Shown here piece after piece: positions 9,044 to 40,841 of a stretch of 40,960 nucleotides of DNA. Within the stretch, counting starts at the first letter, position 1, and each line of letters starts with the position of its first letter. A program made the position numbers and the translations under genes. The DNA is from Galbibacter kalidii (lineage in GTDB: Bacteria > Bacteroidota > Bacteroidia > Flavobacteriales > Flavobacteriaceae). The notes beneath the pieces were generated by a model. That model searched no databases and was not told where the DNA came from. It worked only from the letters and a program-made list of their open reading frames with translations. Where the stretch lies: positions 1-40,960 of the forward strand of contig NZ_JAPFGA010000026.1 in the NCBI RefSeq assembly GCF_026241135.1, written 5' to 3'.

Positions 9044-9072
9044 ATGTTTAAAATTTTTTGAAATATCCAAAA

Positions 9073-9094: not shown

Positions 9095-9113
9095 CATGGA
9101 ACTGCTTCGCTCC

Positions 9114-9132: not shown

Positions 9133-9134
9133 CA

Positions 9135-15494: not shown

Positions 15495-16259
15495 TTATTT
15501 AACGTTTAAAAAACGAAACAACAGGTCTTGTCTTCTTTTAGCAATGGGAATTGATTTTCCGTTTACCATATAACAATAACAACCCGATTCTTTAGTGATT
15601 CTTACTATATGATTTAGATTTATTATATAACTATTGTGTACTCTATAAAAAAAGTTACTATCCAACATGGTTTCATACTCCCCCAGATTTTTTGAAGACA
15701 CCAGTTCCTGACCGTCAATTAGATAAAAAGTAGTATATCTTCCATCAGATTTACAATACACTATGTCTTCCATCTTTACAAAATCAATTTTGTTATTGGA
15801 TGGGATGACTATTTTTTGAAATGCTATATTTATATTATCAATAACATTGGACAACATATCCAATTGCCTTTTCTCTGTATACACATTCGCTCTGATTTCA
15901 CTAGTGGCTTTATTAACGGAAAGTATAAGATCCTCCAGCTGAATAGGTTTCAATATGTAATCTATGGCATTATACTGAAAAGATTTTATTGCAAAATTAT
16001 CAAAGGCCGTTACAAAGATTATTTTATAATTATACTCATCAATCTCGTCCAGAATATCAAAACCGGTTCCTTCGTTCATCATGATATCCATAAATAACAA
16101 TTCCGGTCTAAGTTTATTAATAAGCACTATACCTTCCTCTATCTCAGTGGATCTACCAACAACATTTACGGAATGTGGACAATATTTTTCTAAAAAGTGT
16201 TCAAGTATATCCAAACTTGCTTTTTCATCATCAATCACTATTGCTTTTACTTTTTCCAT
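15495..16259 (-). CDS. LytTR-family response regulator
   Basis: The 254-aa product has an N-terminal receiver with acidic pair D10/D11, phosphoacceptor D58 in LLFMDIMMNEGTGFDIL, T84 in IFVTAFD and K104 in YILKP. Its C-terminal LytTR DNA-binding domain (about residues 150-252) shows IVYCKSDGRYTTFYL, FFYRVHNSYIINLNHI and IPIAKRRQDLL. All phosphorylation residues are present. Partner kinases of LytTR regulators are usually LytS-like and encoded next door. Here the expected position, immediately upstream on the same strand, holds only a degraded 3' end of such a kinase gene, while an intact close relative ends at 33468. This regulator and that kinase are therefore the likely original pair. Confidence 0.9.
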   Translation of the reverse strand: MEKVKAIVIDDEKASLDILEHFLEKYCPHSVNVVGRSTEIEEGIVLINKLRPELLFMDIMMNEGTGFDILDEIDEYNYKIIFVTAFDNFAIKSFQYNAIDYILKPIQLEDLILSVNKATSEIRANVYTEKRQLDMLSNVIDNINIAFQKIVIPSNNKIDFVKMEDIVYCKSDGRYTTFYLIDGQELVSSKNLGEYETMLDSNFFYRVHNSYIINLNHIVRITKESGCYCYMVNGKSIPIAKRRQDLLFRFLNVK

Positions 16260-16313
16260 TTTTCGGGATTATTTGTGACTAAATTATTTTCTGTCTATAA
16301 AGTTTCTCTTTAA
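16257..16313. repeat. 57-bp direct repeat, left copy
   Basis: The copy starts at the start codon of the LytTR regulator and matches 33441-33497 without a mismatch, in the same orientation. It covers the space between regulator and kinase, plus the kinase stop codon and last codons. Beyond 16313 the similarity continues but is diverged, to about 16565. Confidence 0.9.
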
Positions 16314-16565
16314 CTTTAAGGGGATAGAAAGCACCACATTAGTACATGAGGGATCTTTTCCTTCTTTTAAATCATGTATTATTACCGATATTTTGCGTTA
16401 ATTATGCTGTACATGCTGATCCCTTAATTCATTATCAAAGTAGCCTGTGATCTATGGTTACGATTTCTTGATTTTCATCCGCCCTGAAGCGACTCTTCCA
16501 ATCCCATTATCAACAACGATCGCTATTAACCTCTGATCCTTCTTCATAAAGCAGTTACATCAATT
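16284..16565 (-). pseudogene. 3' remnant of a LytS-like sensor kinase gene
   Basis: Compared with 33468-33749, this stretch keeps the coding sequence for the last ~90 residues of the kinase, ending in ...NFIDRK and the stop at 16284, but is broken. It lacks four bases in a T-run near 16390 and two to three more near 16490, so the frame is disrupted. Several substitutions also alter codons. By eye, roughly four of five bases match outside the perfect 57-bp part. The rest of the kinase gene is absent; unrelated sequence begins at about 16566. It is best explained as one flank of a rearrangement or insertion, not as a functional gene. Confidence 0.85.
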
Positions 16566-16908
16566 TTAAACAAAAATTTGAATAGTACTTAATTTTTTAT
16601 AAAAAACAATTCTTACCAAATATTACATGGAAATGCATTTTTATACAACAAAAAGGTTAATTTATTTATTTCCAATTGTGATTCCATAACGAAAAGCCTA
16701 AATTACAAAGATTAAAATAATAAATAAGGGCTTTGGCATTTTTATGGCTCTCCTATGCTGTATAAAACACAGATTCTCAGCATATCGCTACTCGACAAAA
16801 TCCCTGTAATAGAGATACTTACGAAATACGATTGCAAAGATGTTAATAAACTAAAAAATAAACAATTGAAAATCAATGGGTTTTAAGTGCCCACTAATGA
16901 GACAAAGT
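16566..16908. other. Upstream region of the ECF sigma gene, left end of the inserted block
   Basis: About 340 AT-rich bases without a recognisable gene, between the kinase remnant and the sigma factor. It should contain the sigma gene promoter, but no convincing consensus was seen. It is also where the left boundary of the inserted block must lie; no integrase gene or terminal inverted repeat was found. Confidence 0.5.
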
Positions 16909-17460
16909 ATGAATTCAGACTTATATAAGTTGTCATTAAAGGACTATAAGAAATTATTCGTGGAGCTTTATAAACCCCTGTGTCTCTTTGCCGATAAGTA
17001 CGTTGAAAACCTCGAAGAATCAAAAGATATTGTCCAGGAAGTATTTCTTAAAATATGGAAAGACGAGATTGAATTTAAAAGTCGAGACAGTATCAAATCT
17101 TTCCTCTATACCTCTGTGAAAAATAAATGCCTAAACCATTTGAAAAGCAAACGCTATGTCACTACCAACCACATGGCAAACCACGAGATTGAAAAGCTTG
17201 TAAAAGAGTCCTTTTTCTTACGTGAGATAGTTATCGTGGAAACATCTACCATTATTGAAAAAGCAATTAATACGCTGCCTAATAAATGCAAGAAAATAAT
17301 TAGATTGAGTATTAAAAATCTTACAAATTCCCAAATCGCTGAAGAGCTGGGGATTTCGGTAAATACGGTTAAAACTCAAAAAAGAATAGCCTATAAACGG
17401 TTAAAACCACTATTAGGTAAATACTTCTCGTTATTATTAATCATAGATCTTCAGGGCTAA
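16909..17460 (+). CDS. ECF sigma factor (Bacteroidetes sigma-70 family, FecI-like)
   Basis: The ~183-aa protein has sigma region 2 (KLFVELYKPLCLFADKYV, ESKDIVQEVFLKIW, SIKSFLYTSVKNKCLNHL) and region 4 (INTLPNKCKKIIRLS, NSQIAEELGISVNTVKTQ, AYKRLKPLL). These are the hallmarks of the ECF sigma factors paired with FecR-type anti-sigma factors and SusC-like receptors in Bacteroidetes. The start at 16909 (MNSDLYKLS) is preferred by family alignment; an in-frame ATG at 16876 would add 11 residues. The next gene encodes the anti-sigma factor. The expected targets are the SusC/SusD and downstream genes, with activation by cargo binding to the outer-membrane receptor. Confidence 0.9.
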   Translation: MNSDLYKLSLKDYKKLFVELYKPLCLFADKYVENLEESKDIVQEVFLKIWKDEIEFKSRDSIKSFLYTSVKNKCLNHLKSKRYVTTNHMANHEIEKLVKESFFLREIVIVETSTIIEKAINTLPNKCKKIIRLSIKNLTNSQIAEELGISVNTVKTQKRIAYKRLKPLLGKYFSLLLIIDLQG

Positions 17461-17740
17461 AATATGGTTTGTCTGCGCATTAGAATGTTGAACTTTTATA
17501 CAAAAATATGGTTTCCGTAGTTCAGTTATTGTAATACAAGGGGCTCCATGGTCTTCTTTTGTCAAAGATCCTTTGCTTTTTTATAAATTTCTAAATAATT
17601 CTATGAATAGCTTACTTCATCCACAGCGTATAACCAATCCAGTTGGTTTTAAAATGGGATTAAGGTTCATAATTATTTTTTTTAATTTTTTTTAACCCAC
17701 CCCACCCTTTTTGTTGTCTTAGTAGTATAAGCTTCACATA

Positions 17741-18904
17741 ATGATATCAAGTTTTAAGAAAGCCATAACGTTGTCAAAACAGATTGCAGCTTCGCTGCTA
17801 AGAGATAAAAAACCTACACATTTAGAGGAGACGGATCTGTTCAGTGATGAGGATAAGCAATATATTCTGAAATATTTGACTAAAGAGGATCTGATAAAGC
17901 AACGACTCGCCCTGGGAGGACAAATAGATGAAAAAGCGGACAGGGAAAAGATTTTAAAGAAAATCAGTGCCCCTGTAAGGAAACTCGCAGTATGGCATTA
18001 TGCAGCAGCTGCGGTTCTATTCATAGGACTTGCAACTACTTATTTTTTCAAAGGTGAATTATTTCAAACACAACAAACACCTCCTGCAGTTGTGGATATT
18101 ATAGAAGCTGGCATTAATAAGGCTACCCTTACCCGCGAAGATGGAGAGGTGGTGACTTTGCAAGAAGGGACCGCCTATCAATCTAAAAATGTAATTAGCA
18201 ATGGAAACCAGATTGTATATAACACTTCAAAAAACAAAGAATTGGAGGTAGCATATGACTATCTTACTATTCCAAGGGGAGGACAGTTTTTTATACAATT
18301 GTCCGACAGCACTAAAGTATGGCTGAATTCCGAATCCCGGTTAAAATACCCGGTTGCTTTTCCCGAAGGGAAAACCCGGGAGGTGGAACTCGTTTACGGA
18401 GAGGCCTATTTTGAAGTATCACACAGCACCGAGCATGGGGGGGCTGATTTCAAAGTGTATTATAAAGGACAGGAAATACAGGTGTTAGGTACCGAGTTTA
18501 ATGTAAAGGCCTATAAGGACGATACCAATGCATATACCACCCTTGTTAAGGGTAGGGTAGCAGTAAGTTACCAGGGCAAAAAAGAAGTCCTCGCACCTGA
18601 ACAACAATCCAGTTTAAACCTGTCTACCGGTGAACTGACCGTAACGGAAGGCGATATAAACACTGCCGTGGCATGGAAACGCGGACTGTTCATGTTTAAG
18701 AGCAAATCTTTAAAAGAGATCATGAAGGTCCTGGAACGTTGGTATGATGTGGAAATCCTTATCCAAAACAGGGAATTGGAGGTTATTGAGTTTAAAGGAA
18801 CCCTTAGCCGTAACCAAAACCTGGAGGAAATATTAAACCTCTTTAAAAATGCCATGTATATAAACAGTTATCAGGTAAACAATAAAACCATTACTATAAA
18901 CTAA
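17741..18904 (+). CDS. FecR-type anti-sigma factor
   Basis: Single-pass inner-membrane protein of 387 aa. It has a cytoplasmic N-terminal sigma-binding region (1-80), a transmembrane helix (about 83-103), a periplasmic FecR domain (about 175-275; TIPRGGQFFIQLSDSTKVWLNS, YGEAYFEV, VLGTEFNVKAY, LVKGRV), and a C-terminal DUF4974 domain (about 310-387; FKSKSLKEIMKVLERWYDVE). It transmits the signal from the STN domain of the SusC-like receptor to the ECF sigma factor. It lies 280 bp after the sigma gene; the AT-rich gap ends in an oligo-T/CCCACCCC tract just before the start codon, so it may have its own promoter. Confidence 0.9.
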   Translation: MISSFKKAITLSKQIAASLLRDKKPTHLEETDLFSDEDKQYILKYLTKEDLIKQRLALGGQIDEKADREKILKKISAPVRKLAVWHYAAAAVLFIGLATTYFFKGELFQTQQTPPAVVDIIEAGINKATLTREDGEVVTLQEGTAYQSKNVISNGNQIVYNTSKNKELEVAYDYLTIPRGGQFFIQLSDSTKVWLNSESRLKYPVAFPEGKTREVELVYGEAYFEVSHSTEHGGADFKVYYKGQEIQVLGTEFNVKAYKDDTNAYTTLVKGRVAVSYQGKKEVLAPEQQSSLNLSTGELTVTEGDINTAVAWKRGLFMFKSKSLKEIMKVLERWYDVEILIQNRELEVIEFKGTLSRNQNLEEILNLFKNAMYINSYQVNNKTITIN

Positions 18905-19081
18905 CATAAACCTAATAATTACAAATATGAGCGAATAAAAAACAGAAGGGCTATCATCTGTAAAGCATAACAAGGTGGAGTCAACATAAAAAAGAGGGTA
19001 GAAATATCAACATCTCACCGCCGAAATTTCACCCCCTTGAATGATTAATTAATGTTAAACTAATCAATACAATACAAATTT

Positions 19082-22000
19082 ATGGAAATTAAATTTATGG
19101 ATGTCGGTTTCCTGTACGGAAAACGATTACTTATGATGCTTATGAAAACACTGGTGTTTTTAAGCTGTTTTATGGTGTTTAGTTTTACGCCTAAAAATGC
19201 GTTATCACAAAAAATCGAGATTGAGGATGATAGATGGGTAACAGTTGATGAAGTGTTCGATCTTGTTATGGATCAAACAGAGTATACTTTTGTATATCAG
19301 GTAGATTTATTTAAAAATTTTCCCAAAGTACACCTTAAAAAAGGGGCAATGAAAGTAGAAAAATTGCTGGGGGAAAGTTTACCTTCTAATAATTTCAACT
19401 ATAGAGTTACGGAAAACAAAACTATTGTCGTCTGGAGAAAAGATGGTAATAATGCAGACCAACAACTTCAGGTCTCCGGAAGTATCACCGATGAACAAGG
19501 TATACCTGTTACCGGTGCACATGTTTTCATACAAGGCACCATGAAGGGTACTGAAGCAGATTTTGATGGGAACTACTCTTTACTTGTGCCGAGTACAGAG
19601 AGCATATTAGTAGTAGGGTCACTTGGTTATAAAACACAAGAAATTGTGGTAGGCGATCGAAATAAGATTGACGTTGTTTTAATACGTGATGTTTCCGAAT
19701 TAGATGAAGTAGTAATAAGTACCGGTTACCAAAAGATAGAACCGGAGCAAAGTACAGGGAGTGTTTCTACCCTTACCCCCAGGGAATATGACAGTAGGAT
19801 AAATACAACCAACTTTTTACAAGGTATACAAAATAAAATACCCGGGCTGCTCATTAATAACGATGTTCAATTTGAAGGCAATAATCTTTTTCAGATCCGG
19901 GGTATTTCTACTATCAATGGAAATAGCAGCCCCTTGATTGTGGTGGATGGTTTTCCCACAGACCTTTCCTTAGACATGATAAACCCCAACGACATAGAGT
20001 CTGTTACTGTTTTAAAAGATGCTGCGGCCGCTGCTATTTACGGAGTTCGCTCTTCTAACGGGGTAATTATAATAGAACGTAAGAAAGCCAAGGCGGGTAA
20101 ACTGAGGGTGGATTTTCGTCAGGCAACCAGTATAACACCTAAGGAAAATTATGGTAGGTACCGCTGGGATAAGGATGGGGCTAACACCAATATTGATTAT
20201 TACAGGGGCCTTTATGAAGGTGCAACCTCTGCCGATGAATGGGGGTGGTTAACCGATATAAATAACGGCAGTTGGTATAATTACCAAGCCCCCAGAATTA
20301 TTGTGGCCCAACAAGCAGCCGGGGTTATCACACCTGAACAGGCAGAACAACAATTCAGTGAATTGGGTTCCTATAACAATGCCAAAGAATATGGTGAATT
20401 GTTCCAACGTACAGCGATAACCAATTTATATAACCTTGATATATCCGGAGGGAATGAGAATGTGTTGTATTATTTGAATGCCAATTTTATCGACACGAAG
20501 TCTAATTTTATTGAAAATGGCAACAAAAGTTTTCAGCTGTCAGGAAGGGGGACGTTTAATTTCTCAGACCGTTTTTCACTGGATTTGACCAACTTTTTCC
20601 AGCAAAGTATCAGTGAATCTTCTCCTTTTCCCGACATCAATAACATTTACCCTTACGAACGCTTCCATGACCAAGCGGGAAATCCATTGCCATTACATAA
20701 CGGTTCCAATGCCAACCCTTACTATAACCAGGCTTTGATGGACAGGGGGTTATTGGACAATATGTATTATCCTTTGGCAGATGTATATGCGATAAATGAT
20801 GACTCCAAGACATTAAACAACCGCATTACCGCCAATTTTAACTATCGATTGAGCAACGAATTAAATTTAAGGTTCGGCGGGGTGTATGAAACTTCCAGAA
20901 CAGACGTGGACTACTATGCCAAAGAAAACTCAACAGTAGCCCGTCAAATGATTAACCGCTATACAACCAATGGACCTAATGAATCATTAGTGTACAATGT
21001 GCCGATGGGAGGTTTTTTAAGACAACAAGCGCTCAAAACACAGGGTTATACACTTCGTGCCCAGTTAGACTGGAATAAAAAAATAAAAGAAGACCACGCC
21101 CTTACCGCTATTTTGGGTTCTGAGATCAGGACTATTGTTAATGAATCAAACACCGCTTCCTACTTTGGCTATAACGACCAGACTTTGACCCACCAAGGAG
21201 TAGATGTACGATCTTTGTTTGCTAACTTTAGTATTTCGCCCAATTACGCTTTTAGTAATCCTACTATCTTCTATAATGAGCTTTTCAATCAGCAATATGC
21301 AGAGGACAGGTATGTTTCGGCCTATGCCAATGCAGCCTACACCTATAAAGGCAGGTATTCTGTAACAGGGAGTATACGAATAGACCAGTCAAACTTGTTT
21401 GGTACGGACCCTAAATATCGTTACAAACCTTTATGGTCTGTGGGTTTAGCGTGGAACATCAATAAAGAAAGGTTTATGGAAGGTGCCGATTGGGTAAACG
21501 TTTTAAAGCTTCGTTCTGCCTATGGGTTTAACGGAAACGTTGCCAAAAACTCACTCCCACAAATCATTGCGGGAAATAGTAATTTTAATTTTGGTATGAC
21601 CAACTTTATCCCGAGTCTATACCTTGTTTCACCGGCAAATAGGGGGCTCCGTTGGGAACAAACCCATAACATTAACGTAGGGTTGGACTATGATCTCTTT
21701 AAGAATGTAAGGGGAAGCATTGATTATTACGTCAAAAAGAGCACCGACCTGCTGGCCACCACACGGGTTGACCCTACGCGGGGAGTAGCTACCGCTTTAA
21801 TCAATCAAGCTTCGGTTAGGAACAATGGTATCGAGTTTAAACTGAATGCCGATTGGATAACCAACCAACGATTTAACTGGAATACCGGTCTTGTTTTTTC
21901 TCATAATGACAGTAAGGTGTTGAGTGTATATAATATAGACAATGGAACTTCCAGGCAATATATAGATGCCAATGGCTATTCTAATTATTTAGAAGGATAT

Positions 22001-22609
22001 GAAGTAGGTGCTGTATTCAATTACCAATACGCCGGGGTTGACGAAAACGGGGCTCCGTTGATTTATGATAGTGAAGGCAATATCAAGCCTATTTTAGAAG
22101 ATCAGGAAAAGGGAGATGTTAAGTACGTAGGTTCTTCCATTCCTAAGATAAGTTTAGGATTGAGCAATAGGGTAGATATAGGCGATTTTTATGCCTATGC
22201 TATGGTAAACTATTTTGGAGGGTTTAAGTCCCGTGTACCGGTACCCACCCCCCTTGCCACCCGACCTATAGAAGGGGCTTCAGATTACTGGAAGCAACCC
22301 GGTGACGAGGCCGACCCCACTATATTGCCTGCCGTAGGTTATCGTTCGGGCTATGATGTATACCTTGGGGCTACAGATATGTACACGGTAAACGGAGCTT
22401 ATCTCACTTTGGCCGACCTAACCTGTGCTTACAGTTTAAGGAATCAGGGCATCGACAAAATGGGGCTTTCGGACCTGGAGCTTAGATTTCAGGCTTCTAA
22501 TATCTATACGGTAGGGTTTAATGATTATAATTTCAGCCCGGCCACGGGTAGTTTTGAAAAATCTTACTTAACACCTACCTACACCCTTGCAGTTACTGTT
22601 AGTTTCTAA
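19082..22609 (+). CDS. SusC/RagA-like TonB-dependent receptor with STN signalling domain
   Basis: The 1175-aa outer-membrane importer has a signal segment (about residues 20-42), an STN domain (about 45-115; TVDEVFDLVMDQTEYTFVYQ), a carboxypeptidase-regulatory-like domain (about 128-210; VSGSITDEQGIPVTGAHVF), a plug (about 222-335; ELDEVVISTGYQ, QIRGISTINGNSSPLIVVDG, IESVTVLKDAAAAAIYG), and a TonB barrel to the C-terminal aromatic end (AVTVSF). The STN domain fits regulation through the adjacent FecR/sigma pair. Length and domain order are normal for the family. The substrate is unknown; a secreted M16 peptidase encoded downstream points to peptides instead of glycans. SusD follows after 19 bp. 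Confidence 0.92.
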   Translation: MEIKFMDVGFLYGKRLLMMLMKTLVFLSCFMVFSFTPKNALSQKIEIEDDRWVTVDEVFDLVMDQTEYTFVYQVDLFKNFPKVHLKKGAMKVEKLLGESLPSNNFNYRVTENKTIVVWRKDGNNADQQLQVSGSITDEQGIPVTGAHVFIQGTMKGTEADFDGNYSLLVPSTESILVVGSLGYKTQEIVVGDRNKIDVVLIRDVSELDEVVISTGYQKIEPEQSTGSVSTLTPREYDSRINTTNFLQGIQNKIPGLLINNDVQFEGNNLFQIRGISTINGNSSPLIVVDGFPTDLSLDMINPNDIESVTVLKDAAAAAIYGVRSSNGVIIIERKKAKAGKLRVDFRQATSITPKENYGRYRWDKDGANTNIDYYRGLYEGATSADEWGWLTDINNGSWYNYQAPRIIVAQQAAGVITPEQAEQQFSELGSYNNAKEYGELFQRTAITNLYNLDISGGNENVLYYLNANFIDTKSNFIENGNKSFQLSGRGTFNFSDRFSLDLTNFFQQSISESSPFPDINNIYPYERFHDQAGNPLPLHNGSNANPYYNQALMDRGLLDNMYYPLADVYAINDDSKTLNNRITANFNYRLSNELNLRFGGVYETSRTDVDYYAKENSTVARQMINRYTTNGPNESLVYNVPMGGFLRQQALKTQGYTLRAQLDWNKKIKEDHALTAILGSEIRTIVNESNTASYFGYNDQTLTHQGVDVRSLFANFSISPNYAFSNPTIFYNELFNQQYAEDRYVSAYANAAYTYKGRYSVTGSIRIDQSNLFGTDPKYRYKPLWSVGLAWNINKERFMEGADWVNVLKLRSAYGFNGNVAKNSLPQIIAGNSNFNFGMTNFIPSLYLVSPANRGLRWEQTHNINVGLDYDLFKNVRGSIDYYVKKSTDLLATTRVDPTRGVATALINQASVRNNGIEFKLNADWITNQRFNWNTGLVFSHNDSKVLSVYNIDNGTSRQYIDANGYSNYLEGYEVGAVFNYQYAGVDENGAPLIYDSEGNIKPILEDQEKGDVKYVGSSIPKISLGLSNRVDIGDFYAYAMVNYFGGFKSRVPVPTPLATRPIEGASDYWKQPGDEADPTILPAVGYRSGYDVYLGATDMYTVNGAYLTLADLTCAYSLRNQGIDKMGLSDLELRFQASNIYTVGFNDYNFSPATGSFEKSYLTPTYTLAVTVSF

Positions 22610-22628
22610 GAACATTAAATTTTAAAAG

Positions 22629-24005
22629 ATGAAAAAATATATAGATAGACCATTTATATTCCTTTTGTTCCTGACTGTAACCTTGCAGTCTTGTGACGAT
22701 TATCTGGATGTTGACCCTAAGGGCGTGAGGCTTTTAGAAACCGTTGAGGATTACGATTTATGGATGAATAATTATTACGGCTTCTATCCCGATGAAATGA
22801 ATTTGTTGTCAGATTTTGCCGATAAGTTAGATGTGTCCGATCCACCTGTAGATATTAATAGCAGGGTTTACACCTGGCAATCCCAGTTTAATGAGGACGT
22901 TACCAGTGCCTCTACACCTATTTGGGAAGACCACTACGGGTTTATTTACCATGTTAATGCGGTAATTAAAGACGTGGAAAACGCAAGTGGAGGCACCGAA
23001 GAAGTAAAAAACAAACTCAAGGCCGAAGCCTTATTGGGCAGGGCCTTTGAATATTTGCACTTGGTTAATTTGTATGGCAAGGTATATAACCCTTCTACTG
23101 CAAACCAAGACTTGGCCGTTCCGTTTATGACCGGAGTAGATGTTACAGATGAAGTGCCCAATCGTAGCACTGTACAGGAAATATACAACCATATCATAGA
23201 AGACCTTACCGAAGCGCTTCCCAACTTGCCCGAAGACAATAGCGACAATCGTTTTCGAGCCTCTAAGGCGGCAGGATACAGCGTGCTGGCCAGGGCTTAC
23301 TTGTATATGGGAGAATACAGCATAGCTGCCGATAATGCGCAAATGGCCATAGATTACAGTCTTGATCCCATTATCAATTATGAAGAACTGATGGCTACCT
23401 CCACAGAGTTTCCTTCATTAGTACAAAGGTCCGGAACTATCTATGCCAAATATGGGGGGACAAATATCCAGTTTCCTACGCTCGAATTTTATAATTCGTT
23501 TGAGGAAAACGACCTGAGAAGGCAGATTTACTATACTCAACCCTGGGACCCTAACACCCCACCTGCCAGGGGGGAAATTATATTCGTCCCGTTTGGGGTA
23601 TCCATTTGGAACGCCTACCCTAACTGGGGTACTTCGGTCAGTGAAATGCATTTGATAATCGCTGAAGCTGCTGCCCGCGATAATGATTTGGTGACCGCCA
23701 ATGAACAACTGCATCAATTGCGCAAAAATCGCTTTACTACCGAAAATTACGTAAAGTTTGAATCATCAGACCAAGAAGAAGTATTGCAAAAAATATTGAC
23801 CGAGAGAACGTTTGAATTTGCATTTAATGGCTTGAGGTGGTATGATATGAAAAGGTTGGCAGCAGAAGGCAGGATGCCTGAAGTTACCCGACTGGGAGCG
23901 GAGGGGAGTACTATAGCCACTTTACCCCCGGATAGTGATAGGTATACCTTGCAAATACCTGTTCAGGTCATGAGCTTTAACCCTGATTGGGAACAAAATC
24001 CTTAA
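22629..24005 (+). CDS. SusD/RagB-family outer-membrane lipoprotein
   Basis: Lipoprotein of 458 aa with a lipobox ending in LQSC (Cys about 22) directly followed by DDYLDVDPKG, the classical N-terminus of SusD homologs. TPR-like helices (ALLGRAFEYLHLVNLYGK, AGYSVLARAYLYMGEY) and a C-terminal SusD domain (LTERTFEFAFNGLRWYDMKRL) are intact. It forms the lid over the SusC-like barrel and captures the substrate. There are no glycan-active enzymes nearby, so it is probably not a polysaccharide utilisation locus. A rho-independent terminator lies 27 bp downstream. Confidence 0.92.
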   Translation: MKKYIDRPFIFLLFLTVTLQSCDDYLDVDPKGVRLLETVEDYDLWMNNYYGFYPDEMNLLSDFADKLDVSDPPVDINSRVYTWQSQFNEDVTSASTPIWEDHYGFIYHVNAVIKDVENASGGTEEVKNKLKAEALLGRAFEYLHLVNLYGKVYNPSTANQDLAVPFMTGVDVTDEVPNRSTVQEIYNHIIEDLTEALPNLPEDNSDNRFRASKAAGYSVLARAYLYMGEYSIAADNAQMAIDYSLDPIINYEELMATSTEFPSLVQRSGTIYAKYGGTNIQFPTLEFYNSFEENDLRRQIYYTQPWDPNTPPARGEIIFVPFGVSIWNAYPNWGTSVSEMHLIIAEAAARDNDLVTANEQLHQLRKNRFTTENYVKFESSDQEEVLQKILTERTFEFAFNGLRWYDMKRLAAEGRMPEVTRLGAEGSTIATLPPDSDRYTLQIPVQVMSFNPDWEQNP

Positions 24006-24031
24006 AAGAACTCAATTTGATTTTTTGAAAG

Positions 24032-24067
24032 GAGCCTCCCGAAAGTTTTTGGGAGACTCATTTTTTA
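24032..24067 (+). terminator. Intrinsic terminator after SusD
   Basis: GAGCCTCCC (24032-24040) and GGGAGACTC (24051-24059) form a stem with one mismatch, followed by a six-T run. It probably ends the SusC/SusD transcript and separates it from the ABC/MutS genes. Confidence 0.8.
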
Positions 24068-24190
24068 ACCAAGAGGGTAGCCTGTGTCTATTCCGAGGGG
24101 AGCAACCTTAGTCAGGCTTATTGGAATTTTTTTCAAATGAGTTCAATTAGGTGTATTTCCTCAATAATTATTTATCAATAGTAAAAAAAC

Positions 24191-25117
24191 ATGAAAAATC
24201 CTTTAGTGAGCGTTGAGAACCTGTCCCACCGCTATAGTGCGCAATGGGCTGTTAAAGATTTGAATATAGAAATACCTGATAAAGGCATATATGGTTTGCT
24301 TGGTTCAAATGGAGCCGGTAAGTCTACCACCATGAATATTATGAGCGGTGTGCTAAAACAAACCCAAGGGAATGTCTATATCAAGGGAATTGATTTGTCT
24401 AAAAGGCCTATAGAGGCTAAAAAACAGATAGGGTTTCTGCCCCAACATCCTCCGTTATATACCGACACTACGGTAGAAGAATATTTAACCAACTGTGCCT
24501 ATTTACGAAGAATCGATACCAAAGAAGTCAAAGTAGCTGTTGAAAAGGTCATGGAAAAATGTTCCATTGCCCATTTTAAAAAGCGGTTAATCCGCAATTT
24601 GTCGGGGGGATATCAGCAACGGGTCGGGATTGCCCAGGCAATTATCCACAAACCGGCTTTTATCATACTGGATGAGCCTACCAATGGGCTGGATCCCAAC
24701 CAAATTTTAGAAATACGTAAGTTGATAAAGGAAATTGCCCAGGAACGTGCGGTTTTGTTTTCCTCTCATGTCCTTACGGAAGTACAAGCCATTTGCGACC
24801 ATATACTGATGATTAACAATGGGAAAATGGTTTTCTCTGGTAAAACCGAAGAATTTGATAATTACCTAATGCCCAATACCGTTTTTGTCCGTTTGCTCGG
24901 AATGCCTTCCGAAGAGGATATTAAGCAAAGTGTTGAAGGGGTTGAAAGGATAGAGAATTTGGATGGTTTCAATTATCGTTTGTCCTTTAAAAATCTGGAC
25001 GGTGCCATTGAGCGTATTGTTACGGCAAGCGTTAAAAACAATTGGAGGTTAGATGAGATTCGATCTGAGAAGAATTCACTAAACGACGTGTTCTCTGAAT
25101 TATCAAAAATTAAATAA
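24191..25117 (+). CDS. ABC transporter ATP-binding protein, GldA-like
   Basis: The 308-aa ATPase has Walker A GSNGAGKST (38-46), Q-loop region GFLPQ, signature LSGGYQQR (137-144), Walker B FIILDEPTNGLDP (157-169) and the switch histidine in SSHVL. The sequence is of the GldA/ABC-2 export type. GldA, GldF and GldG are needed for gliding in some flavobacteria, but this copy is linked to a fused permease and to MutS-like genes in an uptake cluster, so it is better regarded as a paralog with a different role. The next gene, 20 bp downstream, encodes its permease. Confidence 0.9.
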   Translation: MKNPLVSVENLSHRYSAQWAVKDLNIEIPDKGIYGLLGSNGAGKSTTMNIMSGVLKQTQGNVYIKGIDLSKRPIEAKKQIGFLPQHPPLYTDTTVEEYLTNCAYLRRIDTKEVKVAVEKVMEKCSIAHFKKRLIRNLSGGYQQRVGIAQAIIHKPAFIILDEPTNGLDPNQILEIRKLIKEIAQERAVLFSSHVLTEVQAICDHILMINNGKMVFSGKTEEFDNYLMPNTVFVRLLGMPSEEDIKQSVEGVERIENLDGFNYRLSFKNLDGAIERIVTASVKNNWRLDEIRSEKNSLNDVFSELSKIK

Positions 25118-25137
25118 TCACTAAATTTTTAAAATAG

Positions 25138-27474: not shown

Positions 27475-27524
27475 AAGTAGACTGTTCAGTAGCGATTTGT
27501 ATTATTTAATCCTATTCAAAGATT

Positions 27525-28850
27525 ATGACCTTTAAGATAGATTCACAAACCATTAATGATTTAAATATTATAGGAAGGCCCAAAAGCCAAGATGTGTATG
27601 GACTTTTCAATAATACCAGCACCAATGGAGGCGCAAAAATCCTCAAAGACATGTTTCTTCACCCTTGTTCCCGGGCAGAAGAGATTTCTTATCGGGTTAA
27701 TGTGATCCGTTATTTTAAGGAACAGGATTTTACGTTCCCTTTCACTACTGTGATTTTTGACACTATAGAATTCTATTTAAGTAATACTGATGAACGCACC
27801 CGGATTACTGGTGATGAGGATAAGCTAAAACATAAGTTCGACCGCATCATTGGAGCCAATGTTCAGTATGAACAATTTCAAAATGGAGTACTCAGTTGCA
27901 TAGCCTTGTTAAAAGAATTTAATTCTTTTATGTCAACTATAAAAGAGAGGAAAGCGGGGGACTGTTTTGTTCAGGACATGGAGGGCATATATGCTATCTT
28001 GGATAGGGTTGAGCTTTCTTTTATAAAAGACATGGATAAGATAGGCAAGTTGTCCCATGCTCAAACCGCTGAATACGACCAACTCTTTCGCTTTTCCCTT
28101 AAAAAAGAGCTGTTAAAACTACTGCATTACGCATACAGGATTGATGTGTTCATTGCGGTAGCACAGGTAGCCAAAGAGTTGGGATTTTCCTTTGCTAAAA
28201 TAGAAGAAACCGGCACCTGTATCGTTGAAATGAATGAGGTTTACCATCCCTTGGTACCTGATGCCGTTTCCAATGATATTAGTATAACAGAAAAGGACAA
28301 TATGGTCTTTTTGACCGGGGCCAATATGGCGGGTAAATCCACCTTTATGAAAACCTTTGGCATAGCCATGTATCTGGCACATATTGGTTTTCCTGTGCCG
28401 GCAAAAAGCATGCGCTTCATTATCCAGAACGGCATGTTTACCACCATTAACCTTGCCGATAACTTAAATATGGGCTTTAGTCATTTTTATACGGAAGTGA
28501 CCCGTGTTAAGAAGGTGGCGGAGAGCGTTAATAAAAACGACCGATTGATAGTGATATTCGATGAACTGTTCAGGGGAACCAACGTTAAAGATGCCCATGA
28601 AGCAACGGTCGCCGTGATGGATGCCTTTGCCGGCAACGGTAAATGTACCTTTATTATTTCAACCCACATTATTGAAGCGGGGGAAGATTTAAAAAAACTG
28701 CGTGACAATATCAAATTCCTCTATCTGCCAACCATTATGGAAGGAAACAATCCCCGATATACCTACACCGTTGCCGAAGGGATTACCAGTGATAGACACG
28801 GGATGTTGATTATTCAAAATGAAAATATTTTAGACATTTTAAAACCTTAA
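27525..28850 (+). CDS. Short MutS-family ATPase, first of a tandem pair
   Basis: The 441-aa protein corresponds to the core/lever and ATPase domains of MutS only. It starts at the core-domain motif TINDLNIIGRPKSQDVYGLF, continues through the helical lever, and ends in a full ATPase: Walker A TGANMAGKST (264-273), the NMGFSHFYTEV segment, Walker B LIVIFDELFRGT (341-352) and ISTHI (H381). The mismatch-binding domain I with its Phe-x-Glu motif and the connector domain are absent, so classical mismatch recognition is not expected. It has no Smr nuclease domain. Its stop codon lies 4 bp before the second MutS-like gene, suggesting translational coupling and a heterodimer. The role in an envelope transport cluster is unknown. 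Confidence 0.88.
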   Translation: MTFKIDSQTINDLNIIGRPKSQDVYGLFNNTSTNGGAKILKDMFLHPCSRAEEISYRVNVIRYFKEQDFTFPFTTVIFDTIEFYLSNTDERTRITGDEDKLKHKFDRIIGANVQYEQFQNGVLSCIALLKEFNSFMSTIKERKAGDCFVQDMEGIYAILDRVELSFIKDMDKIGKLSHAQTAEYDQLFRFSLKKELLKLLHYAYRIDVFIAVAQVAKELGFSFAKIEETGTCIVEMNEVYHPLVPDAVSNDISITEKDNMVFLTGANMAGKSTFMKTFGIAMYLAHIGFPVPAKSMRFIIQNGMFTTINLADNLNMGFSHFYTEVTRVKKVAESVNKNDRLIVIFDELFRGTNVKDAHEATVAVMDAFAGNGKCTFIISTHIIEAGEDLKKLRDNIKFLYLPTIMEGNNPRYTYTVAEGITSDRHGMLIIQNENILDILKP

Positions 28851-28854
28851 AAGC

Positions 28855-30183
28855 ATGGCGTTTGTAATCGACCAACAGACCCTGAACGATTTAAATATCC
28901 TAGGGCGATACAAGAGGGATTCTATATTCAGTTTTTTCAGCGGTACTATTACCGAAGGGGGAGATAGGCTTTTGGAAAAGATGTTTCAGCATCCATTTAC
29001 CAAGGTAGAGCAAATCAACAAAAGGAGTTCGATAATTTCTTTTTTTGAAAAAATAAGGGTTTCCCTGCCATTTGACACCCAGGAATTTGAAGTCTTTGAA
29101 AACTACCTTAACACCCCGGCACCAAGAAATCGGGTAACAGCAGGTTTTGCTATCATCCGGGGCAAGCTGTTAAACGTGATAGCCAATGATGAAGCGTATG
29201 TTCTGATAAGGGAAGACTTGGAGAAGACCATAGCAGTGCTTGTTAGATTAAAAAGGTTTCTTCAAAGCATTGATCAGCAAGCCGCTAATATACCTTACCG
29301 GGACGAGGTAAAGAGACTGTTGGGAATACTGAACAACAAGAAGTTTAAACCAGTTTGGGAATGTAAGGAAGTTCGTCACTTAGGCTTCAAGCAACTTTTA
29401 AAACTGGATTATATCCTTAGAGGCTTGTTTTATGACCAAATGGAAGATTTGTTACAAGGCGTTTATGCTATAGATGTTTATATAACGGTTTCCAATGTCG
29501 CCCGTAAAAACAAATATGCCTATGCAAAAGCCGTGGATAAAAGCGAAAAGTATATTGACATCAAAGGGGTGTATCATCCCGCTATTGCTAATGCTGTGGC
29601 TAACGATATATACATTGGAAAAGATAAAAATGTTTTCTTTTTAACCGGGGCCAACATGGCCGGAAAATCCACCCTTATGAAATCTGTTGGCGTAGCTGTA
29701 TACCTGGCACACATGGGATTTCCTATAGCGGGAAAGGAAATGACATTTTCCGTACATGATGGGATATACACCTCCATTAATGTCCCTGATAACATATCGA
29801 AAGGATACAGTCATTTTTATGCAGAAGTGTTAAGGGTAAAGCATATAGCCCAGGAAGTGGCTTCCAAGAAACAGTTGCTCGTTGTTTTTGACGAACTGTT
29901 TAAAGGGACCAATGTAAAAGATGCTTCAGAGGCTACCATATCCATAATAGATGCCTTTTCTAAAAATAAGGGAACTTTCATTGTCTCTACCCATATCATG
30001 GAAGCCGGGGAAGCACTTAGAAAGAACAACCACAGCTTGTTCTTCAAATACCTGCCAACAATAGTTGAAGGTAAAGTGCCTGCCTACACCTACCAACTGG
30101 AAAAAGGGATTACAAATGATAGACAAGGTATGATGATCATTAAAAATGAAAGGATATTAGAGATTATTAAAGGAAGTAGGTAG
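28855..30183 (+). CDS. Short MutS-family ATPase, second of a tandem pair
   Basis: The 442-aa paralog of the preceding product begins with the equivalent core motif (TLNDLNILGRYKRDSIFSFF) and keeps Walker A TGANMAGKSTLMK, the KGYSHFYAEVLR segment, Walker B LLVVFDELFKGT and VSTHIMEAGE. It too lacks the mismatch-recognition and connector domains. The two proteins differ clearly in the middle helical region but align from end to end, as expected of an old tandem duplication maintained as two subunits; MutS ATPases work as dimers with composite active sites. A strong terminator follows 57 bp after the stop codon. Confidence 0.88.
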   Translation: MAFVIDQQTLNDLNILGRYKRDSIFSFFSGTITEGGDRLLEKMFQHPFTKVEQINKRSSIISFFEKIRVSLPFDTQEFEVFENYLNTPAPRNRVTAGFAIIRGKLLNVIANDEAYVLIREDLEKTIAVLVRLKRFLQSIDQQAANIPYRDEVKRLLGILNNKKFKPVWECKEVRHLGFKQLLKLDYILRGLFYDQMEDLLQGVYAIDVYITVSNVARKNKYAYAKAVDKSEKYIDIKGVYHPAIANAVANDIYIGKDKNVFFLTGANMAGKSTLMKSVGVAVYLAHMGFPIAGKEMTFSVHDGIYTSINVPDNISKGYSHFYAEVLRVKHIAQEVASKKQLLVVFDELFKGTNVKDASEATISIIDAFSKNKGTFIVSTHIMEAGEALRKNNHSLFFKYLPTIVEGKVPAYTYQLEKGITNDRQGMMIIKNERILEIIKGSR

Positions 30184-30240
30184 ACCAAAAAACAAACTAT
30201 AAACCAAATCTTGTTTCTTTTTGAATTAGTTAGGGTTTTT

Positions 30241-30269
30241 GACCGCCCTGCAACGGGGCGGTCTTTTTT
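30241..30269 (+). terminator. Intrinsic terminator after the MutS-like pair
   Basis: GACCGCCC (30241-30248) and GGGCGGTC (30256-30263) are perfect inverted copies around a 7-nt loop, followed by six Ts. It closes the ABC/MutS transcript, so the M16 gene needs its own promoter or read-through. Confidence 0.9.
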
Positions 30270-30307
30270 AGACAGATGGATATAAATTACTAAAAACTAT
30301 AGATCAT

Positions 30308-33262
30308 ATGAGGTTAATATTTAATAATTACAAAAGGTTGGCAACAGTCTGTGCCATATTGTTTATTTCCGGCATGAGCCTTGCCCAGAACAAGGAATAC
30401 AAATGGAAGGAGGCTACTTCCAAAGGGTATACCTATAGGTACGTGACAAACGACCCGATGAATACCCGCTTTTATACGTTGGACAACGATCTGCAAGTTG
30501 CCCTTAGCGAAAACCACAGGGAGCCACGTATAGCGGTCAACATAGCTGTAAGGGCGGGAAGTAATACAGATCCGGAAGACCATACCGGGTTAGCGCACTA
30601 TTTGGAGCATATCTTGTTTAAGGGTACTGATCAGTTTAGTTCATTGGATTGGAAAAAGGAAAAGTCCTTGCTGGATAAAATAGAAATACTTTACGAAAAA
30701 TATAACTCCACTACCGATGAAGCCCAGCGCAAGGAAATCTACAAGGAAATAGATAAGGTTTCTCATGAGGCGTCCCAATATGCCATAGCGGGGGAGTACG
30801 ATAAACTGATGACTGATATCGGTTCACAGGGGACCAATGCACATACCTGGGTAGAGGAAACGGTGTATAAGGAAAACATCCCCTCCAACACCCTGGACAA
30901 GTTTCTGACCATACAGGCCGAGCGTTTCAGGAATCCGGTGGTCAGGCTGTTCCATACCGAACTGGAAGCAGTATATGAAGAAAAGAACAGATCGCTGGAT
31001 AATGACGGACAAAAAATGAATGAGGTGATGAACGATGCTTTGTTCCCAACACATAATTATGGGCAACAAACTACTATTGGAACTATAGAACACCTTAAAA
31101 ACCCATCAATCACTGCCATTAAAGAATATTACAATAAATACTATGTCCCCAACAATATGGCAGTGATTATGGTAGGTGACTTTGATACCGATGAGCTAAT
31201 TGCGAAAATTGACAAGCATTTTTCATATATGCAGTCAAAACCGGTCGAGACCTACAATCCGGTTCCCGAAAAGCCTATTACATCCCCAATGGTTAGGGAA
31301 GTATATGGCCCTAATGCGGAAAATGTACGGATAGCCTGGCGCACCCCTGCAGCTTATACCAAAGAAGCCATGATATTGAACTTTATTACCTCTGTGTTGA
31401 GCAACGGAAAAGCAGGGTTGTTGGACATTAATATCAATCAAAAACAGAAAATGCAGGGAGCATACAATCATCTGTTGCAGTACAAGGATTATGGGGTTTT
31501 TATGCTGGGGGGTTCCCCAAAAGCAGATCAGACCTTAGACGATGTAAAGAACATCCTGTTGGAAGAAATGGAAAAATTAAAGCAAGGGGAGTTTGATGAA
31601 GATTTATTAACGGCTATTATCGCCAATTATAAATTGGGCGAGCAAGAGGCCTTAAAATCCAACAACAGCAGGTTAGGGGCTTTATTGAATATATTCATCA
31701 AAAGCAATAACAGTGAATGGGACAAGGATGTGGCATGGTTGGATGATTTGTCCAAACTTACTAAAGACGATATAGTATCGGTAGCCAACAAGTATTTTAC
31801 GGTCAACAACCTCACTATTTATAAAAGGCAGGGAGAGGATAAAAACATGGTAAAGGTGGACAAACCGGCCATTACCCCTGTAGAGACCAATGCAGGAAAG
31901 GAATCGGCTTTTGTCAGCAAAATCAAAAACACGGAAGTAAGAGCCATACAGCCGCAATGGGTGGATTTTGACAAAGATCTTACCAAAGACAGGTTCCAAA
32001 ACACCGAACTGCTTTACATACAGAATAAAGAAAGCGATCTGTTTACCATGCAATATCGTTTTGACATGGGAAGTTATAACAACAAATACCTGCCCATAGC
32101 CCTTGCCTACCTTAATTATTTGTCAACCGGCACATACACTTCAGAAGCACTGAATAAAAAACTCTATTCACTAGCCAGCGGTTATACGGTAAATGCTTCA
32201 GGTGAAGTGACTAATGTAACCTTTACAGGCCTGCAGGAGAACTTTAACGAAATAACCAAGCTGTTTGAGCATGTCATATACAACTGTAAGCCCAATGAAG
32301 AAGCCCTGGAACAGTTAAAAGGCAGGATATTAAAGGGTAGGGCGGATAGTAAACTGAACAAACAGAATATCTTAAGGGGTTTGGTGAACTATGGTGTGTA
32401 TGGTGCCAAAAATCCGTTTAACGATGTCATCCCAAATGAGGAGATAGAAGCCCTGACTTCCAATCAGCTTATATCGATTTTGCACAATCTGTTGAATTAC
32501 AAACACTCAGTGGTATATTTCGGGCCAAAACCCCTAAAAGAGTTGAAGAAAGAACTGGCATCCATCCATAAAATGCCGAAAAAGTTTACAGCCTATCCTG
32601 AAAAGGTGAGGTACACCTATGAAGTACAGGACAAAAACCGTGTGCTGTTTGCAGATTACGATATGGTACAAAGCGAGATACAATGGGTAAGGAACATAGA
32701 GGATTACACCCCAGGCCAAGAAGCGGTAATTACTGTTTTTAATGAATATTTTGGTGGGGGGATGGGCTCTATAGTATTCCAAACCATTCGGGAGTCCAAA
32801 GCCTTGGCTTATGCGACTTATGCCAATTATTCAATCCCTTCCAAAAAAGAGCAAAAATTTAACATGTTTGCCTACGTAGGAAGTCAGGCAGATAAAATGT
32901 TGGAAGCGGTGGACGGTATGAACGAGCTCTTAAATATGCTTCCGTTAAACGAAAAAGCTTTTGAGAACTCCAAGGAATCCATAAAAAAATCCATACAAAC
33001 CCAGCGCATCACAGAAAGTAATCCAATTTACCTTTATCTGGGAGCAAAAGACAAGGGAATAGATTACGACATACGCAAAGAGGTGTATGAGGCCATGGAT
33101 AGGATTGCTTTTGAAGATATAAACACCTTCCACAACAGTAAAATATCCCAAAAACCCTTTACCTACTGTATCATAGGTTCAGAAGAGGTCATCAGCGATG
33201 ACGACCTTAAGAAAATAGGTGAACTCAAAAAGTTCAGTCTGGAAGATATTTTTGGGTATTGA
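30308..33262 (+). CDS. Secreted M16 (pitrilysin-type) zinc metallopeptidase
   Basis: Exported peptidase of 984 aa with a signal peptide (ILFISGMSLAQ, cleavage near residue 27). The inverted zinc motif HYLEH is at 97-101, and the downstream acidic ligand region ELEAVYEE is at about 218-225. A second M16-type half (about residues 580-950; the R/Y-rich element around IRESKALAYATYANYS near 840) completes the full-length two-repeat architecture of about 950-1000 aa. M16 enzymes form a clamshell that degrades peptides, not folded proteins. Linked to a SusC/SusD importer, it suggests breakdown of imported or attacking peptides in the periplasm. It is flanked by terminators on both sides. Confidence 0.92.
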   Translation: MRLIFNNYKRLATVCAILFISGMSLAQNKEYKWKEATSKGYTYRYVTNDPMNTRFYTLDNDLQVALSENHREPRIAVNIAVRAGSNTDPEDHTGLAHYLEHILFKGTDQFSSLDWKKEKSLLDKIEILYEKYNSTTDEAQRKEIYKEIDKVSHEASQYAIAGEYDKLMTDIGSQGTNAHTWVEETVYKENIPSNTLDKFLTIQAERFRNPVVRLFHTELEAVYEEKNRSLDNDGQKMNEVMNDALFPTHNYGQQTTIGTIEHLKNPSITAIKEYYNKYYVPNNMAVIMVGDFDTDELIAKIDKHFSYMQSKPVETYNPVPEKPITSPMVREVYGPNAENVRIAWRTPAAYTKEAMILNFITSVLSNGKAGLLDININQKQKMQGAYNHLLQYKDYGVFMLGGSPKADQTLDDVKNILLEEMEKLKQGEFDEDLLTAIIANYKLGEQEALKSNNSRLGALLNIFIKSNNSEWDKDVAWLDDLSKLTKDDIVSVANKYFTVNNLTIYKRQGEDKNMVKVDKPAITPVETNAGKESAFVSKIKNTEVRAIQPQWVDFDKDLTKDRFQNTELLYIQNKESDLFTMQYRFDMGSYNNKYLPIALAYLNYLSTGTYTSEALNKKLYSLASGYTVNASGEVTNVTFTGLQENFNEITKLFEHVIYNCKPNEEALEQLKGRILKGRADSKLNKQNILRGLVNYGVYGAKNPFNDVIPNEEIEALTSNQLISILHNLLNYKHSVVYFGPKPLKELKKELASIHKMPKKFTAYPEKVRYTYEVQDKNRVLFADYDMVQSEIQWVRNIEDYTPGQEAVITVFNEYFGGGMGSIVFQTIRESKALAYATYANYSIPSKKEQKFNMFAYVGSQADKMLEAVDGMNELLNMLPLNEKAFENSKESIKKSIQTQRITESNPIYLYLGAKDKGIDYDIRKEVYEAMDRIAFEDINTFHNSKISQKPFTYCIIGSEEVISDDDLKKIGELKKFSLEDIFGY

Positions 33263-33312
33263 GGCTCGAAATAAATATATCCCAAAAAGAGTATATAAAC
33301 TAAAATACCAAA

Positions 33313-33347
33313 GGGTCAGATTTTCACCTAAAGTCTGCCCCTTTTTT
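33313..33347 (+). terminator. Intrinsic terminator after the M16 peptidase gene
   Basis: GGGTCAGA (33313-33320) pairs with TCTGCCCC (33334-33341) with one mismatch, followed by a six-T run. It terminates the plus-strand module just before the junction with the minus-strand kinase gene. Confidence 0.75.
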
Positions 33348-33440
33348 AATAGGTTGCAGAGAACTGATTTAAAATATCGCCGTAGTTCCTTATGGGCATA
33401 CTACCTAAAAAATTATCCGGCTTTTTGTTCCAAATCCTTT

Positions 33441-33497
33441 CATTTTTCGGGATTATTTGTGACTAAATTATTTTCTGTCTATAAAGTTTCTCTTTAA
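33441..33497. repeat. 57-bp direct repeat, right copy
   Basis: Identical to 16257-16313 and in the same orientation. Here the repeat contains the stop codon and last codons of the intact sensor kinase, plus the spacer that once led to a regulator start codon; the regulator itself is missing on this side. Similarity with the left copy continues in diverged form to about 33749. Confidence 0.9.
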
Positions 33498-36400
33498 TTT
33501 TAAAGGGATAGAAAGTACCACTTTAGTACCTAAGGGATCTTTGCCTTCTTTTAAATCATGTGTTGTTACCGATATTTTTTTTCCGTTAATTATGTTGTAC
33601 ATGCTGATCCGTTCATTCATAATCAAAGTAGCCCGTGATTTATGGTTACGTCTTCTTGATTTTTTCATTCGCTCTGAAGCGGCTCTTCCAATCCCATTAT
33701 CAATAACAGTCACTATTAGTTTCTGGTCTTTTTTCACAAAACTTACCCTTAATTCCCGATTTTCCTTTTTAGGAGCTAATCCATGTAAAATGGCATTTTC
33801 AACTATGGGCTGAAAAAGCATGCTGGGAATCCTTATCTTTCCTATATCTAGCTCTGAACTTACATCGAAAAAAACCGTAAGATCTCCTCTGAGTTTTAGT
33901 TTCTCAAAATCAATATAAGCTTTTAAATAGTTGATCTCTTCCTTCAGGGAAATAGTGTCCATATCTCCCATTTCCATGGTAAGCCGTACCAAATTTGAAA
34001 ATGCACCAAAAAACTTGTTTGCTTCGAATTCTGATTTTAAAAACAAAACACTTTGTAAACTGTTAACCGCATTAAAAATAAAATGCGGGTTCATAAGGGC
34101 CCTGAACGTTTTGGCTTCCAAATAAGTAATGCGTGTCTTATGCTCTATTTGAACTTTTAAATGTTCCTTCTTCCTATGCAACCAAAACAACATTCCTGCC
34201 AATATTGCTATGGTAAAAGAAAATATAAACCATATCTTTTTATAAAAAACTTCCTCGACGTGTATCGTATACGCAAGTGTATTGGTAGTTTGCCCTGTAC
34301 TTGAAAAACCCCTTACTTCGAGGGTATAATTGTCCGGAGACAGTCCCCTGAGTTGAACCGTATTATAATTCCCTAGGCTAATCCAATCGTTATCGGTTTC
34401 CTTAATCCTGTATTGATATACGTTTTTTTCCGTATTGAATATATCATTAATAGCAAAGCTCAAAGCCAGATGGTTGTTATTATATGGAATTTTAAAGGTT
34501 GAAATATCCCCAAGCCCATAGAGATTCAATATATCCTCCCCATCGCGTTTTGAAAACATTTTATAGCTGGTCAAGTACAGCTTGTTTTGCCTGTTATTTC
34601 CAAAAAAATCATTCGGATCAAATCGAACCAATCCGTTTAATCCCCCAAAATAAAAATGATGGTCACTTGACTCAAAAACCGATCTTGTATTAAACTCATT
34701 ATGGGGAATCCCATTCTCAACATAAAAACCTTGAATTGTATCGCTCTTTTTGTTTAACCTGACCAAACCGTCAAAAGTCCCAAACCACAAATAATCCCCA
34801 CTTTCCAATATTCCGGTAATATTCCCATTTTTTAACTGATCCTGTTCCCTATAGGCAACGGTTTGCAATGTTTTGGGGTTTATCCTTTGCAAGCCTTTTT
34901 CGGTCCCTATCCAGATATTTTTCTTATCATCTTCATAGAAACACCGTATCGTATTATCGATCAGCGATAAAGACTCGGTATCTGTATCGAAATGATCGAC
35001 TTCATCAGTATGCAAATTCTTTCTATAAAGCCCCAAATGAGTCCCCATCCCTAACCAGAGGTACTTTTTATCCCTGTCAATGTGGATTTCAAAAATATGT
35101 TTTCCCGTAATATCAAAACGATCATTAAGCTTTGCTGCATTTCTAAATCGGGATGTGTTTATATCAAATTCAATTAACCCGAAATTCCCCCCTAAGAGCA
35201 GTTTATTGCTTTCTATAGTTTCTTCTATATCAAAAACTGTAGGATTGGGCACCAGCAGATTCTCAGGAATAGCAATCTCAACAAAGGTCTGGGTTTTTAA
35301 ATTCAATTTATAAAGCGAAGAGAAAAAACCATAGGCCCACAAAACATCATCACTTTCTTTATAAAAATTGTAGAGTAAATCTACTGGGAGTGGTGTCCCG
35401 TTTAAGGCTTCATTCTCAAAATCAATTTTGACAAAATCATCTTCCCTGCCTTCCTGTTTATAAAATCCATCATTGGTAAAAATATAAAGCTCTCCTTGTC
35501 CAGTTTCCATCAATCCCCTACAACTGATGGGTATTTCCGGGTTTTCGTCACTCTCCCCTCCGGTTATAGATTCTTTATATAAAAACTTGGTAAACTTGGC
35601 ATCCTTATAATGTACTTTATATATCCCATCTGTATGTACCCATAAATACCCTCCGGGACTTATAGTAAAATTTGTTATCTTGTTATTAAATGTAATTTCC
35701 TTTTCTTCCTTCAAATGAATCTTCCCCAAAACATTCCTAAACACATATGTTTTCACAAAATTCATTTCCGAAGTAACCAGGTCTACATCCCCATTGGACG
35801 GATGTCCGTCTTCATGTCTATACAACAAACTTTGTCCTTTAAGGGGCACCTCAATGATTTGTCGGTTTATCTCAGGTAAATACATATAACAATACGGCTC
35901 CCCTTCATAATAATAATACCCTGTACTGTCCCTATCAAAAAACGCTCCGTTATACGACAACAGGGTCTCTTTTCCATTTAATCCGGATTCCGCTTCTTTG
36001 TAATCAACTAAGGTACTTTCACCATTGGCAAACACCATCCATTTACTGCCCCTTTTTAGGATCAAAGAGCCGTCTTCCAGAATTTCTTCAATGATAATTT
36101 TCTCGCTCCGACCATTTATCTTCGAATCGTTTTTCTTGTCTATGCTATATCGTTTTTTTAACCCTTCGCTGTAGTGATATATTAAATTTGTATTGGTTCC
36201 AACCCACATATCCCCATGTTGTCCCTCTTTTAACGAGACAAATGCTATATCCTTTTCTGTATTTGAATCGGTTTTAATTAACCAAAAAGAATTTCCAGAA
36301 GTCAAATTTTGGAAATACACCCCTTCAGAAGTAGCTACCCATAAATTCCCGGCTGTTGACTTAACAATATCATGAACAAAAAAAACGTCCCTGTTATCCC

Positions 36401-40772: not shown

Positions 40773-40841
40773 CTTTACTTCGTGTTAGTTAAAAGACCTA
40801 GACCGTATTGATAGCCCTGATCGATTCAAATTATTTAACAT

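Follow-up and report, generated by a model that had tools for sequence, protein, structure and literature searches.

A SusCD-type transport locus lying between a sensor kinase gene and its LytTR regulator gene in Galbibacter kalidii, with a repeated kinase gene end and insertion sequence relics at its edges

In Bacteroidota, accessory SusCD-type loci are acquired and rearranged in association with insertion sequences (ISs). Genomic islands integrate into the 3′ ends of genes, whereas a Campbell-type insertion by a single homologous crossover would leave the homologous segment as a direct repeat on both sides of the incoming DNA. The locus of Galbibacter kalidii described here resembles the first of these systems in having a foreign-looking transport locus, dead IS elements at its edges and further copies of related ISs in the same genome, but it also has a duplicated gene end of 300 bp, which is unusual for plain IS insertion. 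Like the islands of gene 3′ ends, it has a gene 3′ end directly repeated at both edges; in contrast to them, it revealed no integrase among the scanned open reading frames (ORFs), its repeat has diverged in a pseudogene-like manner, and the core of the repeat was not found in the other genomes searched. A direct repeat is also what a Campbell-type insertion would give, but the two copies here now match at 87%.

The repeated kinase end and the probable interrupted operon

The analysed window is a stretch of 40,960 nucleotides (contig NZ_JAPFGA010000026.1, positions 1 to 40,960). It contains a sensor kinase, a LytTR response regulator and two copies of the kinase gene end, as well as two further members of the putative ancestral operon:

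15495-16259, minus strand: LytTR response regulator, separated from its kinase (Pfam Response_reg and LytTR)
16254-16565, minus strand: degenerate second copy of the kinase gene's 3′ end, 87.1% identical to 33438-33740, with indels and a stop (16565 from a loose extension)
33438-33740, minus strand: undamaged repeat copy, covering the kinase 3′ end and about 30 bp past it (self-BLAST and alignment)
33468-36653, minus strand: intact sensor kinase of 1061 aa with a Reg_prop propeller, Y_Y_Y and LytS-type His_kinase domains (Pfam)
38164-39822, minus strand: OmpA-family protein, putative ancestral operon (domain scan; synteny in locus L084)
39852-40772, minus strand: PorP/SprF-like protein, putative ancestral operon (domain scan; synteny in locus L084)

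An earlier note on this DNA had described a same-orientation repeat at 16257-16565 and 33441-33749 with 57 identical bp, and both self-BLAST of the window and alignment showed this repeat to be real. Positions 33438-33740 match 16254-16550 in the same orientation with 87.1% identity over 303 columns (E 4e-102), which makes the by-eye estimate of about 80% slightly low, and a looser alignment carries the repeat to 33754 and 16565. A search of the 4.66-Mb draft genome found no further copy. The right copy is indeed the end of an intact kinase gene, and the left copy, which contains frameshifting indels in the alignment and an in-frame stop, is a broken kinase 3′ end located upstream of the regulator gene, as had been proposed.

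The identical core of 57 bp has no mismatches across 33441-33497. Read in the kinase sense, it comprises the final 30 nt of the kinase gene (stop included) and the next 27 bp, terminating with a copy of the regulator's ATG; in the left copy, this identical portion doubles as the upstream region of the regulator. Under even decay, given 35 mismatches in 280 aligned coding columns, the chance of 57 clean bases is about 0.0005 (hand arithmetic), and it is therefore likely that constraint or recent conversion has acted on the core. A search with a Bacteroidota-type promoter motif found no such pattern upstream of the regulator or of the ECF sigma factor gene of the block.

Eleven loci with kinase or regulator relatives were compared, and kinase and regulator genes are adjacent on one strand in three of them (L084, L087 and L159), all from distant relatives. 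In L084, which belongs to another genus of the same family, one strand encodes, in this order, a long repeat protein, PorP, OmpA, the kinase and the regulator, with a kinase-regulator gap of 129 bp, and in L087 and L159 (the latter by tblastn only) the regulator directly follows the kinase on one strand. The two genes are convergent in L088, which has a weak regulator match and two kinases side by side, and divergent in L154, where the kinase match is partial. No regulator was detected in L085 and L086, and no kinase in L155-L158 at the threshold used. These data support the claim that a 17-kb block probably interrupts a kinase-regulator operon, whose ancestral order would have been PorP, OmpA, sensor kinase and LytTR regulator as in L084. 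The search for an empty site proposed earlier was successful in part: the adjacent pair exists in the three distant loci, but none was found in a close relative, the best kinase matches being 33-39% identical.

Those matches come from four genomes besides G. kalidii, the only ones with kinase relatives at E ≤ 1e-130 among 397 genomes of the family. At E ≤ 1e-80, the kinase is absent from the six other genus members examined, and the genome of G. kalidii has no other copy of it. The regulator-plus-repeat DNA was found in one of seven genus genomes, that of G. kalidii itself. A scan of genome contigs with the regulator gave four distant loci (best identity 37%). Since kinase relatives are few in the family and absent from these six genus members, both genes appear to be accessory within the genus.

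A pair of small proteins, related to each other and unmatched in Pfam (36802-37167 and 37603-38088; 71% DNA identity over 84 bp), is encoded between the OmpA and kinase genes, and the corresponding gap in L084 is only 260 bp. The window ends in an abrupt GC-rich stretch (40836-40960), whose translation, judged by eye, is a type-B T9SS-like C-terminal domain similar to that closing the long protein that precedes PorP in L084. Near an RHS-repeat gene, the window also has tandem duplicated genes (3857-6247, 72% alike in DNA) and another gene that contains internal repeats (7748-9154). Neither the latter nor one of the duplicated genes (3857-5005) has a Pfam match; as a guess, both regions possibly form an RHS-associated immunity-type array.

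Gene content and recurrence of the block

The block between the two kinase ends encodes nine long ORFs:

16897-17460, plus strand: ECF sigma factor (Pfam sigma70 r2/r4)
17741-18904, plus strand: FecR-type anti-sigma factor (Pfam)
19082-22609, plus strand: SusC/RagA TonB-linked outer membrane protein (profile scans)
22629-24005, plus strand: SusD-like lipoprotein (Pfam)
24191-25117, plus strand: GldA-like ABC ATPase, under the GldA cut-off (profile scans)
25138-27474, plus strand: ABC-2 permease fused to a GldG-like auxiliary domain (profile scans)
27525-28850, plus strand: first short MutS-like ATPase, MutS domains III and V matched (profile scans)
28855-30183, plus strand: second short MutS-like ATPase, MutS domains III and V matched (profile scans)
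30308-33262, plus strand: M16 peptidase, unseen with the cassette in ten loci of another family (Pfam; locus comparison)

The Pfam scan agrees with the ECF sigma/SusCD/ABC/MutS/M16 content read from the sequence earlier. The ECF gene probably starts at 16897 or 16909 rather than at 16876, because the annotated first codons are IS sequence. By gene content, the block is a SusCD-type transport locus, in which SusC adjoins SusD and is accompanied by ECF/FecR genes with predicted control functions. The cassette shared with other genomes spans 17741-30183, so that a pair of MutS-like proteins is encoded within an envelope transport locus. Scans of the window for tRNA genes and Rfam families gave nothing.

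The order FecR, SusC, SusD, ABC ATPase, permease, MutS, MutS, as in the window, was found in seven of ten loci that were fetched from the best MutS-like matches in nine genomes of another family of the class. Among the other three, L140 has no detectable SusD, L137 has neither SusD nor FecR within the DNA retrieved, and L139 has the MutS pair only. An ECF gene was detected in one of the ten loci and the M16 gene in none, and an eighth locus with the cassette order (L103) came from the permease search. At E ≤ 1e-80, MutS-like proteins are present in 30 of 201 genomes of this family, 13 of which have two or more matches. The permease was detected (E ≤ 1e-60) in at least seven of 395 class genomes, including G. 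kalidii, one genome of the same family and five of the other family; this count is a lower bound, as two candidates were scored per genome. Seven permease loci were fetched, revealing MutS genes in two (from the same genome) and a weak M16 match in one, and plasmids gave two weak partial permease matches. Eight M16 loci were fetched from other places, one of them in G. kalidii; at the chosen threshold none of the eight matched MutS or ABC, and two gave a weak SusC match.

A genus-wide DNA search with the whole block found no second copy; apart from the two IS ends, all matches were to genes and were short or weak. A search in the genus of genome G124 matched G124 only. A full-text literature search returned nothing combining SusC, SusD and MutS with M16/GldG or FecR, and nothing on this arrangement appeared in the literature listings and the opening parts of abstracts. 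With seven of the nine block genes recurring in the same order in another family, acquisition is likely, and the block is for the most part a recurring cassette, with the M16 gene added here or lost elsewhere.

Insertion sequence relics at the block edges

Both edges of the block contain IS relics, which are absent from the earlier account and surfaced in the genus-wide DNA search; the left one is separated from the kinase fragment by about 200 bp of filler:

16566-16768, no strand assigned: AT-rich filler (GC of 16566-16875, 0.255)
16769-16899, plus strand: relic of an IS4-type element, consisting of its 3′ end with the right terminus (DNA matched at 87% by copies from two other species of the genus)
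33273-33402, minus strand: relic of an IS256-type element, 3′ end and terminus (DNA matches; lower edge approximate)

The left relic shows an 86% match over transposase residues 365-401. Its full-length relatives in the other two species have an intact ORF (L062) and a split ORF (L063), each with 9-bp flanking duplications read by eye, and the intact IS4-type copy carries DUF4372 and DDE_Tnp_1 domains. The 9 bp adjoining the IS4 terminus of the relic occur once in the window, and no target-site duplication was found there. The right relic matches same-genome repeats and an intact element (PF00872) of a further species of the genus at 73-77% over DNA positions 33278-33399; against transposase residues 375-395 it is 62% identical (E 0.001) with an internal stop. 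This relic has eight related matches elsewhere in the G. kalidii genome, all of them at contig ends. Both termini point to the block and the truncated interiors to the kinase copies.

The filler has no other match in the G. kalidii genome. As a leftover of the kinase or its flanks it is unrecognisable, since the similarity of 16551-16768 to these sequences is not above that of 30 shuffles. At the left end of the contig, positions 1-99 resemble an IS terminus and contain a 34-bp palindrome (35-68), and a similar end (80%) opens contig C47 of the same genome.

Some 10 bp separate the termini from the outermost genes of the block (the right edge being approximate), a position expected if the two IS copies had carried the block in the manner of a composite transposon. 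However, the transposases belong to different families, one IS4-type and one IS256-type, rather than to two related IS ends, and a 300-bp duplication of the target would not result from movement of this kind. The positions are equally well explained if operon edges tolerate IS insertion, and we regard composite-transposon-like movement as very unlikely.

A site-specific integrating element with its attachment site in the kinase 3′ end would also bracket the block with gene ends, the left copy being the displaced one. The earlier note had raised an attachment-site duplication because the gene end is diverged beyond a perfect core, while remarking that no integrase was visible. The remark holds for the ORFs covered: scans against Pfam, NCBIfam and PHROGs, which took in all nine long ORFs of the block (Pfam), detected no integrase or recombinase. 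The attachment-site reading is not borne out. The core belongs to the kinase 3′ end and has no comparable copy in 397 family genomes, 12 others of which gave matches of only about 20-55 bp with E values of 2.5e-5 or weaker; two candidates were scored in each genome. The cassette loci fetched from other genomes have no kinase match. Moreover, both edges are taken up by IS relics, and the decay pattern of the left copy fits neutrality (see below). With neither a recombinase nor shared cores detected, this explanation is disfavoured, and we consider it highly improbable.

Decay of the left copy and origin of the arrangement

The two copies of the kinase end differ by 35 mismatches in 280 aligned coding columns, with third positions as the largest class (17 of 35). 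Two of these mismatches, both in third positions, lie in gapped codons, which were dropped from the codon test, leaving 33 differences in 91 ungapped codons, 15 of them on third positions. In simulations, a left copy evolving neutrally, with the right one constrained at omega 0.1, gave 9-19 third-position differences, a range that includes the observed 15, whereas two copies constrained at omega 0.1 gave 18-28, above the observed number, and two copies at omega 0.2 gave 15-25, with the observed number at the edge. The left copy also lacks residues kept in all four aligned homologous kinases, among them Glu-Arg within the MNER stretch and the GT(K/R) glycine. This copy has decayed mostly as a pseudogene, possibly after a phase of functional divergence.

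The predominance of third-position differences and the overlap with the omega 0.2 range would be compatible with recombination between two diverged kinase-regulator loci, in which the left end came from a paralogue or foreign allele, the right kinase from another locus and the block from between them; the two adjoining kinases of L088 offer a parallel. Against it stand the stop, the frameshifts and the loss of conserved residues, which show a period without function, as well as the 57 identical bases and the absence from the genome of another copy of the kinase end or of the kinase itself (E ≤ 1e-80). A redundant gene end fits the decay of the left copy better than two long-functional paralogues do, with a mixed history also compatible, and we consider an origin from two loci unlikely.

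We favour as probable that a foreign locus interrupted the operon between kinase and regulator by recombination, whether IS-associated, homology-based or illegitimate, in which the end of the kinase gene was duplicated; decay then followed. The probably foreign ECF-sigma/FecR/SusCD/ABC/MutS/M16 locus would have entered between the two genes, and the same event would have left the final ~300 bp of the kinase gene duplicated beside the regulator. Entry or rearrangement was probably not site-specific and took place by recombination tied to the IS4-type and IS256-type elements, which are now truncated; two different IS families do not alone account for the 300-bp duplication. One possible route is a partial duplication of the kinase-regulator pair with subsequent replacement of its middle, another the single-crossover insertion of DNA bearing a kinase end. 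Afterwards, the left kinase end and the ISs would have decayed, the former being redundant DNA except for the 57 bp before the regulator, which may persist as the carrier of its ribosome binding site or promoter. Of this account, the repeat, the IS relics, the pseudogene-like decay and the adjacency of the two genes in some distant relatives are observed, and we infer the order of events, the type of crossover and the reason for the conservation of the 57 bp.

In a more specific version, the block travelled as an IS-bracketed circle with a captured piece of the kinase 3′ end, and its entry by a single crossover rebuilt an intact kinase gene and left the displaced end upstream of the regulator. 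We consider this quite unlikely; if true, it would represent an integrase-free capture of accessory loci through gene-end homology. Under the favoured explanation of a foreign locus interrupting the operon, the arrangement looks like a clear case of ordinary genome rearrangement rather than a new mobile element.

Thus, the G. kalidii locus illustrates the splicing of probably foreign transport genes into a sensor operon with both partner genes still open. Given strains of this species, the scar formed by the decaying gene end and the IS relics could allow the event to be reconstructed. The locus also raises the question of whether the kinase and the regulator still act together though their genes are 17 kb apart.
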